From Gammaproteobacteria bacterium (GTDB lineage: Bacteria > Pseudomonadota > Gammaproteobacteria > Steroidobacterales > Steroidobacteraceae), in assembly GCA_009926865.1 (NCBI GenBank), contig RFOD01000025.1:1-32279 (forward strand): 32,279 nucleotides of DNA, in the 5' to 3' direction. Shown here piece after piece: positions 23,899-31,117 of this stretch; positions within the stretch are counted from its first letter, which is position 1; every line of letters begins with the position of its first letter. Both the position numbers and the translations under genes were made by a program. The notes under the pieces were generated by a model. It saw only the letters and a program-made list of their open reading frames with translations. It made no database searches and was not told where the DNA came from.

Positions 23899-26862
23899 CT
23901 AGCCTCGGCTCCGCCGAGCGGTCGTCGTAGTCGCCTTCTTCGGTACCGTAGATTTGCGAGTGACTGAATCAGCGACTTCGTCACTGGCTAGGCGCTTAGT
24001 TTTGCGCGCACTCTCTTCGCGCGCTTGCGCACGTAGTGCAGCACCAACCAGTGATTTCTGCTCTGCATCGTGGATCTTGGCAATCCCCGTGGCGGGTGCT
24101 GCGGCCGGCGCACGCCCCGCATACAGAAGTTCATGGTCTGCCGATAAGGGACGCTCGAGCTGATGGCGGATTTGGTACCACGCGCCTTGATTCTGCGGCT
24201 CCTCTTGGCACCAAACGATCTCACGCGCGTTCGGGTAGCGACTGATGATGGCGTCGTATTCTTCAACTGGGAATGGATACAACTGCTCCAGACGAACCAA
24301 GGCAATATCTTTGATTTGTGACTCGCGTTGCTCTTTAAGGAGATCAAAGTACACCTTGCCGCTTGAGAGCACGATGCGGCGCACCGTTTTAGGCTCTACT
24401 TCATCCACATCATCGATAAGCGTGCGGAAGCTCCCTTGCTGCAATTCCTCCAACGAGGACACACTCATGGGGTGTCGCAACAAGCTTTTCGGCGTCATTA
24501 CCACGAGCGGCTTACGGAACCGCCTGAGCATCTGCCGACGCAACATATGAAACATTTGCGCAGGGGTTGAGGGCACGCACACCTGCATATTGAGTTCGGC
24601 GCAGAGTTGCAAGAAACGCTCAAGACGGGCGGAGGAATGCTCCGGTCCCTGCCCTTCATAACCATGCGGCAAAAAGAGCGTCAGACCGCAGTATCGACCC
24701 CACTTGGATTCGCCCGAGCTGATGAACTGATCAATGATGACCTGAGCGCCGTTAGCAAAATCCCCAAACTGGCCTTCCCAGATCACCAGCACGCCGGGAT
24801 CCGTGGTCGAAAAGCCGTACTCGAAGCCCATGACGGCTTCTTCTGATAGCACCGAATCAATCACCTGAAATCGCGGCTGACGCTCAGCGATGTGCTGCAG
24901 CGGGATATGAGTCGCACCCGACTCTTGGTGGTGCCACACGGCGTGACGATGGAAGAACGTACCGCGACCGCAGTCTTGGCCAGACAAACGCACTGCGTAG
25001 CCCTCTTCCAACAAACTCGCATAGGCCAGCGTTTCCGCGCAGCCCCAGTCAAGGAGCATGTCACCTGCCAACATTTTTTTGCGGTTCTCAACCACCTGTG
25101 CCACGCGAGGGTTCAACACAAAGCCGTCGGGAACTTCGGTAATCCGCGCACCGAGCGCCTGCATACGTCGCGGCTCAACACCCGTGGTCACACGCGCCGA
25201 CCAGTCGACCTCCATGTAGGGGCTCCAGTCGACGGTGAATTTATTACCAATCATGCCGAGCGAAGCGCGCGCCAGCGGCCGCCCCTCATCAAGGCCCGAT
25301 CGATAATCGTTCATCATGGCTTCCGCTTCGTCCGCGCTCAGCACTCCTTCGCCTACCAAGCGATCGGCATATTGCTTACGGGCGCTCGCGTGCTGGCGGA
25401 TGGCCTGATACATCACAGGCTGCGTCGCCGACGGCTCATCCGCTTCGTTGTGACCCAAACGCCGATAACACACGAGATCAATCACAACATCTTTGTGAAA
25501 TTTTTGGCGATAGCGCATCGCAAGTCGCGTGACAAATACCACTGACTCTGGATCATCGCCATTGACGTGGAAAATCGGCGCTTCGAGGATCTTAGCCACG
25601 TCTGAGCAGTACATGGTCGAGCGCGCATCATCCGGCCGTGACGTGGTAAACCCAACCTGATTATTAATCACGACGTGAACGGTGCCACCGGTGGAATAAC
25701 CACGCGCCTGCGATAACTGCATGGTTTCCATCACCACGCCCTGACCGGCGAAGGCGGCATCACCATGGATCAAAATCGGCACCACCCGCTCACCGAACTG
25801 ATCGTTACGGCGCTCTTGGCGAGCCCGAACCGAGCCCTCAACCACAGGGTTGACCACCTCCAGGTGTGAGGGGTTAAAGGCGAGTGCCACGTGTACATTA
25901 CCGCCCGAGGTACGCAAATCTGCAGAAAAGCCCTTGTGATATTTGACGTCACCCGAACCCTTAAGCTCGGTTGTATCGTAACGGCCTTCAAATTCCGAGA
26001 ACAAAACGGAAGGTGATTTACCGAGCACATTGACGAGCACGTTTAGTCGACCGCGGTGGGCCATACCGATCACGAATTCTTCGGCGCCCAAATCGCCACC
26101 GGTTTGAATGGCATCGTCCAAAAGCGCAATGAGTGCTTCGCCGCCTTCCAATGAGAATCGCTTTTGCCCCACATATTTGGTGTGCAAATAGCGCTCGAGA
26201 CCTTCGGCTGCCGTCAACTGCCAAAGAATATTGCGCCGCTCTTCCGTGACGAAAACCTGATTGAGGCGCCCCACCTGAAATTCATCCTGCAACCAGAGGC
26301 GCTCTTCGGTGTTGGAGACATGAGCGAATTCCGCTCCCACCGAGCCACAGTAGATTTTCTTGAGAGTGGCAATGATCTCGCGCAGCGTGGTGCGCTGCGG
26401 GATCTCGCGTTGGCGACTCCCCGTAAAAAACTCGGTATCGAGATCCGCATCCGACAACCCGAAGTAATCGAGATCGAGCACCCGAGGACGATCGCGGCGA
26501 GACAGTCCCAAGGGGTCAAGCTGAGCGACCAAGTGTCCACGGTTGGCGTAAATCTGCACCAATCGTGAAACCGCTCCTTGTTTGGCGCTGGCCTCACTCT
26601 CAATCGGGATCGCTCGCGCGCCACCGGCTTCTCGCGCAGCCTTGGCACGCTGGGCGATGGCGGCCCGAATCGACTGGTGCGACGGCTCATCGCCGATACG
26701 GCTCGCGCCATTGGCTCGCGGCAGTTTTTCAAAGTATTCCTGCCAGCGACGATCAACGCTCGCTGGATCGTGCAGGAACTGCTCATAGAGGGTTTCGATG
26801 TACTCGGCATTGCTGCCGAATGGAAGGGAGGTGTCGACCTGATCGCTGCGCGTAGCGCCCAT
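23899..26862 (-). CDS. sucA: 2-oxoglutarate dehydrogenase E1
   Basis: Thiamine-diphosphate enzyme that decarboxylates 2-oxoglutarate in the TCA cycle. About 987 residues from the ATG at 26862: N-terminal E2-binding helix (EYIETLYEQFLHDPASVD), the GMAHRGRLNVLVNVLGK motif, ThDP/Mg-binding GDAAFAGQGVVMETMQLS with INNQVGFTTS, and GHNEADEPS. The C terminus, past about residue 945, is an unusual Lys/Arg/Thr-rich tail (KTKRLASDEV... KKATTTTARRSRG) that E. coli SucA lacks. An upstream GTG (26913) in frame overlaps the TATAAT promoter hexamer and is rejected. A tRNA-Arg fragment lies just upstream. Confidence 0.96.
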   Translation of the reverse strand: MGATRSDQVDTSLPFGSNAEYIETLYEQFLHDPASVDRRWQEYFEKLPRANGASRIGDEPSHQSIRAAIAQRAKAAREAGGARAIPIESEASAKQGAVSRLVQIYANRGHLVAQLDPLGLSRRDRPRVLDLDYFGLSDADLDTEFFTGSRQREIPQRTTLREIIATLKKIYCGSVGAEFAHVSNTEERLWLQDEFQVGRLNQVFVTEERRNILWQLTAAEGLERYLHTKYVGQKRFSLEGGEALIALLDDAIQTGGDLGAEEFVIGMAHRGRLNVLVNVLGKSPSVLFSEFEGRYDTTELKGSGDVKYHKGFSADLRTSGGNVHVALAFNPSHLEVVNPVVEGSVRARQERRNDQFGERVVPILIHGDAAFAGQGVVMETMQLSQARGYSTGGTVHVVINNQVGFTTSRPDDARSTMYCSDVAKILEAPIFHVNGDDPESVVFVTRLAMRYRQKFHKDVVIDLVCYRRLGHNEADEPSATQPVMYQAIRQHASARKQYADRLVGEGVLSADEAEAMMNDYRSGLDEGRPLARASLGMIGNKFTVDWSPYMEVDWSARVTTGVEPRRMQALGARITEVPDGFVLNPRVAQVVENRKKMLAGDMLLDWGCAETLAYASLLEEGYAVRLSGQDCGRGTFFHRHAVWHHQESGATHIPLQHIAERQPRFQVIDSVLSEEAVMGFEYGFSTTDPGVLVIWEGQFGDFANGAQVIIDQFISSGESKWGRYCGLTLFLPHGYEGQGPEHSSARLERFLQLCAELNMQVCVPSTPAQMFHMLRRQMLRRFRKPLVVMTPKSLLRHPMSVSSLEELQQGSFRTLIDDVDEVEPKTVRRIVLSSGKVYFDLLKEQRESQIKDIALVRLEQLYPFPVEEYDAIISRYPNAREIVWCQEEPQNQGAWYQIRHQLERPLSADHELLYAGRAPAAAPATGIAKIHDAEQKSLVGAALRAQAREESARKTKRLASDEVADSVTRKSTVPKKATTTTARRSRG

Positions 26863-26904
26863 GATGGAAAAATGGCCCCCGAATCGCCAAACGTAAAACC
26901 GCGC

Positions 26905-26910
26905 ATTATA
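26905..26910 (-). promoter_or_regulatory. -10 hexamer of the sucA promoter
   Basis: A perfect TATAAT reads on the minus strand 42 bases before the sucA ATG. No good -35 is visible; at the right distance lies the GC-rich acceptor end of the tRNA-Arg fragment. This suggests an activator-dependent promoter or simply a weak one. Confidence 0.55.
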
Positions 26911-26919
26911 CACGAGGGG

Positions 26920-26968
26920 ATGGCGCCCCCGGCAGGAGTTGAACCTACGACCTACCGCTTAGGAGGCG
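26920..26968 (-). repeat. tRNA-Arg 3'-half fragment (att-like direct repeat, sucA side)
   Basis: 44 bases (26925-26968) are identical to the anticodon-loop-to-acceptor half of the intact tRNA-Arg at 29682-29725. After one mismatch at the discriminator (G73 here, A73 in the intact gene), the CCA and one more base also match. The 5' half is missing, so it is not a tRNA gene. This is the expected footprint of integration by a tyrosine recombinase at a tRNA 3' end. Confidence 0.85.
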
Positions 26969-27135
26969 ACGGTGCGTGCAAAAACCTGCAACCTGATACA
27001 AAGCGCAACTAACTGAAATATATAGCCTTTCTATCGCTAGTGGATGACGACAAGTGGGGCGCGATAGCGTCTACCCATGGCAAATCTGAGTGAGGCGCAG
27101 CCGACACTTTACAGCGATACCCCCTGACAGAACTG

Positions 27136-28179
27136 TCATTCAGGACTAATGACTTTTCCCGTCGCTACCAAAGACGCAAACACCGATGATTGCATCGCTT
27201 TATTCTCGGCCACTGACGCACTCGGGCGCGTCGCGAAAGCATCTAAGGGCCAGCCCTGAGCCGCGTCGTAAATCGGAGCATGCGCGGCAGGACATAATTC
27301 ACTCAGAAACGAAAAGCGACTACCCGCTCGACGACGGCGTAGGGCCTCAAGATCGATGGAGGCCGTGATGAGACACTCCTCGGTTCCAAAAGCCTTATTA
27401 AGTACGCGGCCAGTGAAATCGATAATTTGCGATTCCCCATGACACACGTTGGGTGGCAAGTCTGAATCAATATTAGGTCCGGAGTTCGCCATCAATAAAT
27501 AGCAATTATTCTCCCAAGCACGAGCCTTTCGAACCGCAGACCACGCGCCACCCCCCTCATCGAAATGTTCTGGCCCGCGCGCCTCGCTGGTGACATGAAG
27601 TAAGACCTCGGCCCCCCGCATCGTCAGACAACGCGCAACCTCTGGAAAATGGATGTCATAACACACCAGTACCCCAAGGCGACCCAGCGGCGTGTCCAAT
27701 ACAGGGAATAGCGATTCCGGTCCTCCGAACAAGCGGCAATACTCGGTATATACGTCCTGCGGCGTCGTCTTACCCGTTACGGAATACATCTTTCGGTAAC
27801 GCAAAGCCACCTCTCCGGACGGATCAATAATAAAAGCTGTGTTAAAAAATCGCCCGGGGAAGGCTGCTAACCTCTCATAAACCATCCCTGCGATATAAGC
27901 CTTGTGATCCTGCGCCGCTCGCATCAAGGGCTCGATCTCGGGACCCGGTAATTCCACTGATGCCTCGATCCACGCTGACGTGGAGACGCCTAATTCGAAC
28001 CCGTGGATACAAAACTCGGGTAACACGAATAGCCGACTCCCAAACGCGTTAGCCCCACGATTCACGAGGTCCGCGCAGTGCCGAGCATTTTCTAGCAGCA
28101 CCTCGCGGCGTACCGACTGGCCAGCCCGTACAACAGGGCGCACCCTAGACTGAATCACCGTTGAGGAATAGCTCGTCAC
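27136..28179 (-). CDS. Carbon-nitrogen hydrolase (nitrilase superfamily, amidase type)
   Basis: Predicted cytoplasmic amidase or carbamoylase acting on a small amide; substrate unknown. The 347-residue protein has the Glu-Lys-Cys triad: E55 in FVLPEFCIHG, K130 in LRYRKMY, and C173 in VLVCYDIHFPE. The VRKARAWENNCYLLMAN segment is also typical. CYDxxFPE is the form seen in amidases and carbamoylases rather than in true nitrilases, which usually have a CWEN-type motif. The C terminus is extended by about 60 residues beyond the core. The GTG at 28179 has AGGAG 8 bases upstream and decides the start; a TTG at 28206 is rejected. The stop lies within a 14-base palindrome (27125-27138). Divergent from an MFS transporter within the tRNA-flanked island, suggesting uptake and hydrolysis of one compound. 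Confidence 0.88.
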   Translation of the reverse strand: MTSYSSTVIQSRVRPVVRAGQSVRREVLLENARHCADLVNRGANAFGSRLFVLPEFCIHGFELGVSTSAWIEASVELPGPEIEPLMRAAQDHKAYIAGMVYERLAAFPGRFFNTAFIIDPSGEVALRYRKMYSVTGKTTPQDVYTEYCRLFGGPESLFPVLDTPLGRLGVLVCYDIHFPEVARCLTMRGAEVLLHVTSEARGPEHFDEGGGAWSAVRKARAWENNCYLLMANSGPNIDSDLPPNVCHGESQIIDFTGRVLNKAFGTEECLITASIDLEALRRRRAGSRFSFLSELCPAAHAPIYDAAQGWPLDAFATRPSASVAENKAMQSSVFASLVATGKVISPE

Positions 28180-28218
28180 TTGAGTTTCTCCTGAGCCGAC
28201 ACGCAAGAGGTCAACTGC

Positions 28219-28240
28219 TCGTTTAATCGGTACGAAACGA
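28219..28240. promoter_or_regulatory. Inverted repeat in the amidase/transporter intergenic region
   Basis: Perfect 6-base arms TCGTTT and AAACGA with a 10-base spacer, placed 39 bases from the amidase GTG and 27 from the transporter ATG. Location between divergent catabolic-type genes fits an operator controlling both. No regulator gene is in the island, so a regulator would have to act from elsewhere. Confidence 0.4.
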
Positions 28241-28267
28241 CACTAAGAACTAGGCTAGAGTGACAAT

Positions 28268-29596
28268 ATGACCCAAGCACGCGATGAATATCCAGTCACG
28301 ACTGCATGGTACGTGGTCGGTCTGCTGACGGCGGTCTATATCGTCTCATTTATCGATCGCCAAATTCTCAGCTTGTTGATTGAGCCGATCCGACAAGAAA
28401 TGGGACTCAGCGACTTCCAGATGTCATGGATCGGTCCTCCAGCCTTCGCTATTTGTTTTTTATTTTTTGGATTAGTGTTTGGTAATTTAGCCGATCGATT
28501 CGGACGCCTCAGATTGATCGCGCTCGGGTTAGCACTGTGGTGCGGCATGACGGCCGCCTGTGCATTCGCCGAGACCGCCCTCGAAATGTTCGTCGCTCGC
28601 ATGGGAGTTGGGGTAGGTGAAGCGGTTCTCACGCCTTGCGCCTTGTCACTGATCAGCGACATGTTCGCGAGAGACAAAGTGGGCAAGCCGATCGGCGTAT
28701 ATTCATCTGGAGTAGCGCTCGGCTCAAGTCTTGCATTCATTTTGGGTGGTGCACTTATTCTATGGTTGGAGCGTGGCGATCACGATCCGTTTTATTTTTT
28801 TGGCATCAGCACTACGTGGCGAGAAACTTTTCTCCTAGTTGGTCTACCAGGTCTACTACTGCTGCCTCTTTTACTTTGGGCCAAAGAGCCGGCTCGAAGG
28901 GAGCGATTAACGGATATTCATACAATCTCGTTTTTTCAGACAGCTCAATTTTTGAGTAAAAATAGGCGAGTGTATATACCTCTTTTCTTTGGAAAATCTG
29001 CTTTTAACCTGATCGCTTATGCTCATTTCTGGATCGTACCGATGTTCGCTAGAACTTGGGGCTGGAGCCCGGCGCGTACGGGCGCTATATGGGGTACCAC
29101 GTTACTCTTGTCGGGACTTACCGGAGTTCTCATAGGCGGTTGGTTGAGTGATTACTGGTACCGTAACGGCCGAAAAGAGGCAGCGATCCGCACGATGTGG
29201 CTCGCGTTGCTGATCACGATACCGCTACACGCGGTCGCTCCGCTGATGCCCTCGGGAGAACTCGCGATCGCGTTATTCATACCTGCACTCGTTGCGGCTG
29301 GCGCAGGTAGTTCTGCTGGGTCCACCGCCACCATGCTCGTCACGCCCAATGAGTACCGTGGTCAAATGATCGCTCTATCCTTACTAATCGCTAGCGGATT
29401 AGGTCAATTTCTCGGTCCGACCACCGTAGCAGGACTGACTGACTTCATTTTTGCCGACCCGAAAGCGCTACGTTACAGCCTATCTCTTGCAGTGTTTTCC
29501 TTCAGCATTGTCGCTTTTTTGATCTTATCTTCAGGTCTCAAAAGATATACGACTACGGTGACTGAACTTGAGGAGCGGTTAGGTAAGAAACCCTAA
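28268..29596 (+). CDS. Major facilitator superfamily transporter
   Basis: Integral inner-membrane carrier of 442 residues with about 12 predicted helices. MFS signatures seen: YIVSFIDRQILSLLIEPIRQ in helix 1 (as in the Spinster-like/anion-cation-symporter groups), the loop 2-3 motif GNLADRFGRLRLI, and GVGVGEAVLTPCALSLISDMF in helix 4-5. The central loop KEPARRERLTDIHTISFFQ separates the halves. The substrate cannot be named; pairing with the divergent amidase suggests an amide or nitrogen-containing organic acid. Codon use is noticeably more AT-rich in parts than in surrounding genes. ATG at 28268 with only a weak ribosome site. Two CCCTAA copies straddle the stop codon. Confidence 0.9.
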   Translation: MTQARDEYPVTTAWYVVGLLTAVYIVSFIDRQILSLLIEPIRQEMGLSDFQMSWIGPPAFAICFLFFGLVFGNLADRFGRLRLIALGLALWCGMTAACAFAETALEMFVARMGVGVGEAVLTPCALSLISDMFARDKVGKPIGVYSSGVALGSSLAFILGGALILWLERGDHDPFYFFGISTTWRETFLLVGLPGLLLLPLLLWAKEPARRERLTDIHTISFFQTAQFLSKNRRVYIPLFFGKSAFNLIAYAHFWIVPMFARTWGWSPARTGAIWGTTLLLSGLTGVLIGGWLSDYWYRNGRKEAAIRTMWLALLITIPLHAVAPLMPSGELAIALFIPALVAAGAGSSAGSTATMLVTPNEYRGQMIALSLLIASGLGQFLGPTTVAGLTDFIFADPKALRYSLSLAVFSFSIVAFLILSSGLKRYTTTVTELEERLGKKP

Positions 29597-29676
29597 AAAC
29601 CCTAAGTTGTTCGCGATGCTAAACACACCGTGAAAACCACAACAACCCATCTATGCGGGGTTATCGATTGATTTAT

Positions 29677-29725
29677 ATGGTGCCCCCGGCAGGAGTTGAA
29701 CCTACGACCTACCGCTTAGGAGGCG
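29677..29725 (-). repeat. att-like direct repeat within intact tRNA-Arg
   Basis: Partner of the copy at 26920-26968. The perfect 44-base core (29682-29725) spans the anticodon loop, T arm and acceptor 3' strand. Crossover anywhere within this core would leave the tRNA functional. Confidence 0.85.
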
Positions 29726-29753
29726 GTCGCTCTATCCACTGAGCTACGGGGGC
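29678..29753 (-). tRNA. tRNA-Arg, anticodon CCT
   Basis: Complete 76-nt cloverleaf on the minus strand: acceptor GCCCCCG/CGGGGGC, D arm GCTC-AGTGGATA-GAGC, anticodon stem ACCGC/GCGGT with loop CTCCTAA (CCT, codon AGG), T loop TTCAACT, discriminator A73 and encoded CCA. It lies 21 bases behind tRNA-Ala in the same orientation. Its 3' half is duplicated next to sucA. Single-copy rare-codon tRNAs like this are common integration targets. Confidence 0.97.
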
Positions 29754-29774
29754 CCGGGAAGACGAACGGGAAAA

Positions 29775-29850
<76 letters not shown>

Positions 29851-29864
29851 ACACAAGGGCGGCG

Positions 29865-29870
29865 ATTCTA
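29865..29870 (-). promoter_or_regulatory. Candidate -10 of the tRNA-Ala/tRNA-Arg operon
   Basis: TAGAAT on the minus strand, 14 bases before the tRNA-Ala 5' end, followed by a GC-rich discriminator (CGCCGCCC) typical of stable-RNA promoters. No strong -35 is seen. Confidence 0.45.
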
Positions 29871-29914
29871 GCACTGCTTGTGCCTTCCCCTGCGACGACC
29901 CCGCCTCGCCGCTC

Positions 29915-29944
29915 CGAGGGCCGAAGGTACGAGGGCCGAAGGTA
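29915..29944. repeat. 15-base perfect tandem repeat
   Basis: CGAGGGCCGAAGGTA occurs twice with no spacer (29915-29929 and 29930-29944). It is followed by a partial AGGGCC. It lies between the tRNA-Ala promoter and the fatty acid hydroxylase start, upstream of both. Function unknown; a slippage duplication is the simplest explanation. Confidence 0.85.
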
Positions 29945-29980
29945 AGGGCCAGCCTGAAAGCCACGACCCCTGAGCCCCGA

Positions 29981-31117
29981 ATGGCTACCCAAACCCCGGC
30001 AGCCTGTGATCGAATCGCGCTTGTGAACCCAATCGTCTACGCCATTCCGATCTTTATGCTGACGATCCTCGCCGAGGCGGCGATCGCCCACGGTCTTGGC
30101 CGACGGGTCTATAACTTGGCAGATGCCATCACCAGCCTGAACTTCGGCATCCTCAGTCAAGTCTCGGCCGCATTCTCGCGGGTGCTCGGCTTGGGTGTTT
30201 ACATGTGGGTCTTTGAACACGGACGTTGGCTCACCCTTCCCTCCGATGCCCTTTGGGTCTGGGTCGCAGCACTCATCGCCTATGACTTTCTCTACTACTG
30301 GGTGCATCGGTGCGGACACGAGGTTGAACTCATGTGGGCCGCTCACCAAGTGCACCACTCCTCTGAGTACTTCAACCTATCGACCGCATTGAGGCAGACT
30401 TCCACCGGGGTGCTGTTTTCTTGGCCATTTTATTTGCCGATGGCCTTACTCGGCGTACCCCCCGTTGTATTTGCTGTCGTCGCGCTGATTGATCTCTTGT
30501 ATCAGTACTGGGTGCACACCGAATTGGTCGGAAAACTTGGGACACTCGATCGCATTCTCGTCACGCCCTCCAATCACCGCGTCCATCATGGGCAAAATGA
30601 TTACTGCATTGATCGTAACTACGGCGGGATCCTCATTATTTGGGATCGACTGTTTGGCACCTTCGCCGAGGAGCGTGACCTAGAGCCTGTGGTTTATGGA
30701 ATTCGCAAACCGCTCAATAGTTTCAATGCGATCTGGGGCAATCTGAATGTCTTTGATGCTCTTTGGCGTCGCTGTCGTCACGCGAGCAGCCTGTGGCAGG
30801 CTATCCAAGTGTGGTTTGCTCGACCGACCACTGTCGCGGCGCTGCAGCAAGAACCCATCCATCGTGAGCGCTTGCAGTCGCGAGCCCCCGATCGCCTTCA
30901 ATATTATGTGGTCGTGCAGTATGCGTTACTCGCCGTCATCGCAACCTATTTCTTTGCAATCACTGAGACGCTGAATGCTCTTTCGCGCACGGGCTATGCG
31001 CTCTGGATCATAGGCTCCGTCTGGTCGCTTGGCGCACTACTTGAGCAGCGCGCCTATGCAAAGATACTTGAGGGGACGCGTTGGCTACTCAGTCTTGGGA
31101 TGCTGGTCTTGGTTTAG
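29981..31117 (+). CDS. Fatty acid hydroxylase / sterol desaturase family membrane protein
   Basis: Di-iron membrane oxygenase family acting on lipid C-H bonds; the substrate is not predictable from sequence. The 378 residues include at least six hydrophobic segments and the histidine boxes HRCGH (109-113), HQVHH (122-126) and HRVHH (199-203), with an extra histidine at WVHTE (179). The segment NYGGILIIWDRLFGTF is a family hallmark. A C-terminal region of about 90 residues with two further membrane segments (about 305-350) extends past the core. ATG at 29981 has a weak ribosome site. The 3' end overlaps the convergent response-regulator gene by 33 bases. Confidence 0.9.
   Translation: MATQTPAACDRIALVNPIVYAIPIFMLTILAEAAIAHGLGRRVYNLADAITSLNFGILSQVSAAFSRVLGLGVYMWVFEHGRWLTLPSDALWVWVAALIAYDFLYYWVHRCGHEVELMWAAHQVHHSSEYFNLSTALRQTSTGVLFSWPFYLPMALLGVPPVVFAVVALIDLLYQYWVHTELVGKLGTLDRILVTPSNHRVHHGQNDYCIDRNYGGILIIWDRLFGTFAEERDLEPVVYGIRKPLNSFNAIWGNLNVFDALWRRCRHASSLWQAIQVWFARPTTVAALQQEPIHRERLQSRAPDRLQYYVVVQYALLAVIATYFFAITETLNALSRTGYALWIIGSVWSLGALLEQRAYAKILEGTRWLLSLGMLVLV

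Follow-up and report, generated by a model that had tools for sequence, protein, structure and literature searches.

Mobile DNA with attachment sites at tRNA genes has been described in several forms that resemble the locus considered here. CIMEs (cis-mobilizable elements), as they are characterized in PMC5704250, keep attL and attR at the 3′ end of a tRNA gene and have no integrase or transfer genes; they derive from an ICE or IME by decay and are mobilized in cis once a live element has accreted. In the anticodon-centred class A islands described for Islander, a regenerated tRNA gene and a displaced 3′ tRNA fragment lie in the right order and orientation more than 2 kb apart, with an integrase inside the island, and the anticodon class is a frequent type of attachment site, accounting for 2,083 of the 3,919 Islander islands (PMC4383910). 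Tycheposons, finally, are presented in PMC10872708 as cargo islands of 4–200 kb with a tRNA at the border, nutrient genes and a tyrosine recombinase.

The DNA analysed here, called the window throughout, is the entire contig RFOD01000025.1 (C21) of 32,279 nt from a draft genome of 2.32 Mb in 103 contigs, with a completeness of 97%. It contains an islet of two genes bordered by an intact tRNA-Arg(CCT) gene on one side and a displaced copy of the 3′ half of that gene on the other (Table 1). Its geometry is that of a known sort of mobile DNA, a tyrosine-integrase islet without its integrase, which is of an ordinary kind, is well preserved and is best called CIME-like. Like a CIME, it has putative attL and attR ends in the form of 49-nt repeats that reach CCA on both sides and whose core is common to integrase-bearing elements, and genes for integration or transfer were found neither among its ORFs of at least 90 aa nor by Pfam analysis of the cargo nor by a six-frame PF00589 search. 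It differs from the CIMEs as portrayed in PMC5704250 in that its cargo is limited to two metabolic genes, no accretion with a live element is seen at the islet, and its origin may lie in a phage just as well as in an ICE or IME, which is why only likeness is claimed. As in Islander class A islands, the 3′ fragment lies downstream in the same orientation and the 2,757 bp between the copies fall within 2–200 kb; since the islet has no internal tyrosine integrase, the filter described in PMC4383910 would reject it, as would other island finders that require an integrase. The likeness to tycheposons is confined to the tRNA at the border and the type of cargo, whereas the islet, with 2.7 kb and no tyrosine recombinase, is smaller and simpler than the elements covered in PMC10872708.

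The tRNA-Arg repeat pair and the site in congeners

Table 1. Features of the islet and its flanks (positions in the window).
Feature	Position	Strand	Basis or remark
sucA (2-oxoglutarate dehydrogenase E1), chromosomal flank	23899–26862	−	ORF; congener matches
Displaced tRNA-Arg 3′ fragment, tRNA positions 29–76 plus one base; other putative att end	26920–26968	−	Repeat search
Cargo 1, nitrilase-superfamily amidase, 347 aa	27136–28179	−	Pfam PF00795; GTG start inferred
Cargo 2, MFS transporter, 442 aa	28268–29596	+	Pfam PF07690
Intact tRNA-Arg(CCT)	29678–29753	−	ARAGORN; Rfam tRNA E 5e-15; congener comparison
tRNA-Ala(CGC)	29775–29850	−	ARAGORN; upstream partner of tRNA-Arg

The sole direct repeat family reported in 26000–30500 (minimum 16 nt) is a tRNA-Arg pair of 49 nt, 26920–26968 and 29677–29725, with copies that are 98% identical, in the same orientation and spaced by 2,757 bp. 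It includes an exact block of 44 nt (26925–26968 = 29682–29725) that corresponds to tRNA-Arg positions 29–72 and is the longest exact direct repeat in the whole window, 20 codon-shuffled controls having maxima of 14–17 nt. An earlier note on this DNA had described a perfect 44-base tRNA-Arg copy near sucA in the orientation of the intact gene, with G73 near sucA, A73 in the intact tRNA and CCA in both, and the alignment agrees with it on every point: the single mismatch of the pair is position 73. Both copies have the T-stem pair A51-U63. Among 217 family genomes, exact matches to the central 41 nt of the 44-mer are the two in the window and one in the own tRNA of G199; in the source genome there is no further copy besides the two ends of the islet, and its tRNA-Arg(CCT) gene was found once.

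From CCA to the start of sucA the distance is 58 bp for the displaced fragment and 2,815 bp for the intact tRNA. The flanking ORF is taken here to be sucA, as in the earlier note, and its start was set at the ATG common to congeners. GC content is 52.0% in the islet and 58.3% and 56.2% in the flanks. A promoter and terminator scan returned one promoter-like match (1.7 expected) and six terminator-like matches (2.7 expected), and Rfam at E≤0.1 returned the two tRNAs and one match on the opposite strand of a tRNA, below its gathering score. No PADLOC defence family was matched, and PHROGs gave nothing beyond weak or function-unknown families.

The corresponding site was compared within the genus, in a set of 24 genomes including the source genome that was searched with the N-terminal part of sucA. 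Twenty genomes matched, and the upstream DNA was compared in 18 of the 19 matching congeners, G005 being omitted because its contig begins within sucA. After setting aside G001, in which N's extend from inside tRNA-Arg almost to sucA, and G006, in which the contig end folds back and the tRNA ends lie on the strand opposite sucA, 16 readable congeners were available. The interval from tRNA-Arg to sucA is free of genes in 14 of these, and the cargo of the window is found there in none. Ten have one tRNA-Arg end only, 80–119 bp from sucA; four (G004, G009, G018 and G023) have one or two additional short tRNA-Arg 3′ ends without genes, the last end being 70–96 bp from sucA; and two (G016 and G019) have 2.2 and 2.0 kb of unrelated genes without a second tRNA end. 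tRNA-Ala precedes tRNA-Arg in most congener loci too. The insertion is restricted to the source genome among the genomes seen, and its site is the tRNA end. The empty site anticipated in the earlier note, with a single tRNA-Arg end carrying G73 beside sucA, is the one present in the ten congeners, and the gene content that it proposed to compare is not alike in all relatives.

Considering these observations, it is likely that the islet is what is left of an element of the anticodon-loop class that used a tyrosine integrase at tRNA-Arg(CCT), a CIME-like remnant with cargo only. A site-specific integrative element would have recombined into the 3′ half of the gene through a tyrosine integrase, crossing over around the anticodon loop; the tRNA would have been restored by the element's copy of positions ~29–76, while the earlier 3′ end would have been displaced toward sucA. 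Both this arrival by integration and the loss of the integrase are inferred: the integrase and any transfer genes may have been lost afterwards or may never have been present, and the outcome would be an islet of 2.7 kb in which the two att ends enclose genes for an uptake transporter and a carbon-nitrogen hydrolase. Such an islet would be a clean and very small case of site-specific elements leaving metabolic cargo beside core genes without a recombinase of their own.

Cargo genes and their relatives

The amidase matches Pfam CN_hydrolase (E 2e-42). The catalytic triad of nitrilases is Glu-Lys-Cys, and residues E55, K130 and C173 of the amidase, located in the motifs LPEF, YRKM and VCYD, align with the places of this triad in an alignment with Nit2. 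Its relatives of solved structure (22 sequences, E 1e-22 to 3e-11) include Nit2, formamidase, aliphatic amidase and N-carbamoyl hydrolases. The transporter matches MFS_1 (E 3e-39), the best NCBIfam model being TIGR00893 at a score far under its cut-off. The two genes probably allow the cell to use an organic amide or an N-carbamoyl compound.

Close relatives of both genes are present in G005, G019 and G003, with identities of 83, 76 and 76% for the amidase and 77, 68 and 70% for the transporter, the G003 pair and the G005 transporter being cut by contig ends. In all three genomes the pair is at other loci without tRNA-Arg, which shows that the cargo has not been travelling only by the tRNA-Arg route. 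The amidase is present at no less than 75% identity in 4 of the 24 genus genomes; the best matches in G013 and G017 are at 52%, yet both genomes match G005 fully over an 88-aa stretch of sucA. A pattern-based scan that detects close relatives only, covering one genome each of 84,980 species, returned three loci above 75%. Amidase relatives on plasmids are all under 60% identity, and short peptide patterns, again sensitive to close relatives only, found none in viral contigs.

The cargo is conserved, in that differences between relatives fall mostly on third codon positions (0.19/0.09/0.65 at positions 1/2/3 for the amidase compared with that of G005), which speaks for purifying selection. The GC content of the homologues elsewhere is within about 2 points of that of their own surroundings. 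Since the divergence of the cargo is about equal to that of sucA (82% between the window and G003, 77% between the window and G019), the cargo may have been exchanged within the genus or may have resided there for long and been lost repeatedly. The earlier note had also suggested a search at tRNA-Arg for a bigger island that combines this cargo with an integrase; none was found. In G019 an inverted repeat of 67 nt (L147, 4147–4213 and 6576–6642; 88% complementary) brackets the pair; one of its arms overlaps the end of the MFS gene, and it looks like an inverted duplication formed at a rearrangement.

Integrases at tRNA-Arg(CCT)

Gene order and repeats in the same family and in viral contigs indicate that the 3′ end of tRNA-Arg(CCT) is a used integrase target. 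In G164, a genome of another genus of the family, a 447-aa integrase (Phage_integrase, E 3e-23) lies next to tRNA-Arg(CCT), and a 64-nt repeat (92%) beginning at tRNA position 27 has its distal copy 3,662 bp away. The resulting 3.66-kb islet (L226, G164:C41, 87–3838) also contains a HigB-like toxin and an HTH ORF. It resembles the islet of the window in the tRNA, in a repeat boundary only two bases apart and in a length of a few kb, and differs from it in having an integrase, in its other content with the HigB-like/HTH pair and in both its tRNA ends being C51-G63 and G73. A search of the other 216 family genomes found nothing that matches the G164 integrase at E≤1e-40. A second integrase of G164, 90% identical, lies on C196 near another tRNA-Arg(CCT) of the same assembly and is perhaps a strain variant. 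Integrase-like ORFs directly after tRNA-Arg(CCT) were also found in G024, G029 and G195 (Pfam was run for G024 and G195); in G024 this is a 451-aa integrase with a 27-nt repeat from the T loop on, the two marking another type of element.

IMG/VR was searched with a pattern of the tRNA core in which three T-stem letters were left free, and six contigs matched. Five (L234, L235, L236, L238 and L239) have the core from about position 26–29 to CCA without the tRNA 5′ half, as would be expected of an attP, while the sixth contains an intact tRNA gene. In four of the five, one or two integrase ORFs lie nearby, with a Phage_integrase ORF above the Pfam cut-off within about 1.3 kb; the fifth has no integrase in the 1.6 kb examined. 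The anticodon-to-CCA core of tRNA-Arg(CCT) appears as an integration site common to viral elements and small islets.

The six-frame PF00589 search of the source genome gave no match on the contig of the window, so there is no tyrosine recombinase between the repeat copies, in agreement with the earlier note, in which the cargo was an amidase and a transporter without a recombinase. Elsewhere in the genome PF00589 matches three places, two strongly and one weakly. The strong matches, which are presumably XerC and XerD, have scores in ranges for which 24 and 21 of the 24 genus genomes also have a match. The weak one (L149, G000:C14:60–1442), with a Pfam score under the cut-off, is an integrase-like ORF of 460 aa that stands at the beginning of its contig, some 140 bp away from tRNA-Phe (L149, 60–1657). 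This integrase was considered as a helper acting in trans and rejected because of its association with tRNA-Phe both here and in five of the eight places of its relatives, including the four best. With its own place included, nine such places were checked, six beside tRNA-Phe, one beside tRNA-Met and two with no tRNA in the available DNA. tRNA-Phe is a second integration site of the group, with relatives of this integrase beside it in G014, G011, G005, G022 and G159.

The earlier note had left open whether the islet is a deletion remnant or a minimal element mobilized in trans, and it is the former that the data favour. It is unlikely that the islet is a minimal mobile unit whose excision and movement depend on the integrase of some phage or element that resides in the same cell and shares its att core. 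Both putative att ends are intact over 44 nt, viral contigs hold attP-like cores with nearly the same boundary, and the cargo is patchy in the genus, all of which would suit such mobility; in a genome that is 97% complete, however, none of the PF00589 matches lies at tRNA-Arg, and the 41-nt core has no copy there beyond the two ends. The remnant explanation, for its part, has four findings against it: no integrase-bearing version with the cargo of the window was seen, the cargo pair of G005, G019 and G003 lies at other loci, both tRNA ends share a T-stem pair that is absent from the congeners and would not result from one plain integration, and the exact 44-mer of the window occurs in none of the viral contigs.

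The two tRNA ends and the tail repeats of congeners

The bases at positions 51, 63 and 73 bear on which tRNA end is the older one. An identical 76-nt gene with G73 and C51-G63 is present in all 16 congeners whose tRNA-Arg is complete, and a seventeenth, G011, agrees with them over the 3′ half, so that G73 and C51-G63 are found in 17 of 17 and A51-U63 in none. The sucA tree places the window within the genus, after the branching of G016 and G019, at weak support (85/63 and 85/80); if instead the window had branched off first, the T-stem change could have gone either way. In a sample of 35 tRNA-Arg 3′ halves from other genera of the family, which is enriched for the T-stem pair of the window through the way the sequences were found, 20 have C51-G63 with G73, 13 have A51-U63 with G73 and two have A51-U63 with A73. 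The last two are G195 and G204, and G195 has its integrase directly after that tRNA. From these distributions G73 is very probably ancestral and A73 derived, and it is plausible that A73 was brought by the element. The intact gene is best read as a chimeric att end, in which a host 5′ half would be joined to a 3′ half with A51-U63 and A73.

The earlier note had taken the fragment beside sucA for the original tRNA end and A73 for an element-derived base. This reading finds partial support: the fragment has the genus-wide G73, but since both copies have A51-U63 while the congeners have C51-G63, the displaced fragment is not simply an untouched host end. A plain exchange of the 3′ half with a congener-like host would leave C51-G63 beside sucA, and a further step has to be assumed. 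Three such steps fit the data: the host lineage may have switched to A51-U63 before integration, the element may have brought A51-U63 and A73, followed by partial gene conversion of the displaced copy in the T stem, or A73 may be a later point mutation. A bolder version appears improbable, in which a two-gene, integrase-less element is still moved in trans, its arrival rewrote the 3′ half of the sole tRNA-Arg(CCT) to A51-U63 and A73, and the displaced copy, as a mosaic of an element-type T stem and a host-type G73, would bear witness to an exchange of strands or a conversion that spanned the att core. The surprising part of the locus is small and lies in this mosaic of the two ends, whose mixed base pattern cautions against always regarding a displaced fragment as the unaltered ancestral end.

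It is very doubtful that a tail repeat came first and that the cargo was inserted between its copies by homologous or illegitimate recombination. The one or two extra 32-nt tRNA ends in G004, G009, G018 and G023 and the same arrangement at the fold-back contig end of G006 would provide a starting point for this, but the congener repeats begin at about position 45 after a 36-nt spacer, whereas the copy in the window begins at position 29 without a spacer, with a boundary like that of the integrase-bearing elements and the viral cores. An assembly chimera joined at the 44-nt repeat is scarcely credible: a draft of 103 contigs, a repeat near k-mer size and the fold-back in G006 would make it conceivable, but both flanks keep the Ala-Arg-sucA order of the congeners, the difference at position 73 shows the copies to be two real sequences, and the cargo has congeneric homologues.

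The tail repeats themselves (L033, L032, L035 and L042 in G004, G009, G018 and G023) form 68-nt units, in which the 32-nt tRNA-Arg 3′ ends are identical to the gene and the 36-nt spacers are variable, with ACCTC after two bases at the start and CACTCCA or similar at the end. Folding of the four 68-nt repeats gave nothing exceeding shuffles. The repeat of G018 is absent from its near relatives G014 and G022. The E. coli tyrT gene has tRNA-tail repeats, which those of the congeners resemble; a literature search linking 'rtT RNA' with 'tyrT' found no entry. At the end of G006:C140 (L043, 297–586) the fold-back is a 304-bp inverted self-match, probably an assembly artefact, whose mirrored half shows a similar tail repeat. 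In another genus (G182:C100, 117675–119236) tRNA-Arg(CCT) again lies close to the start of sucA, so that the proximity of the two genes may go back a long way within the family.
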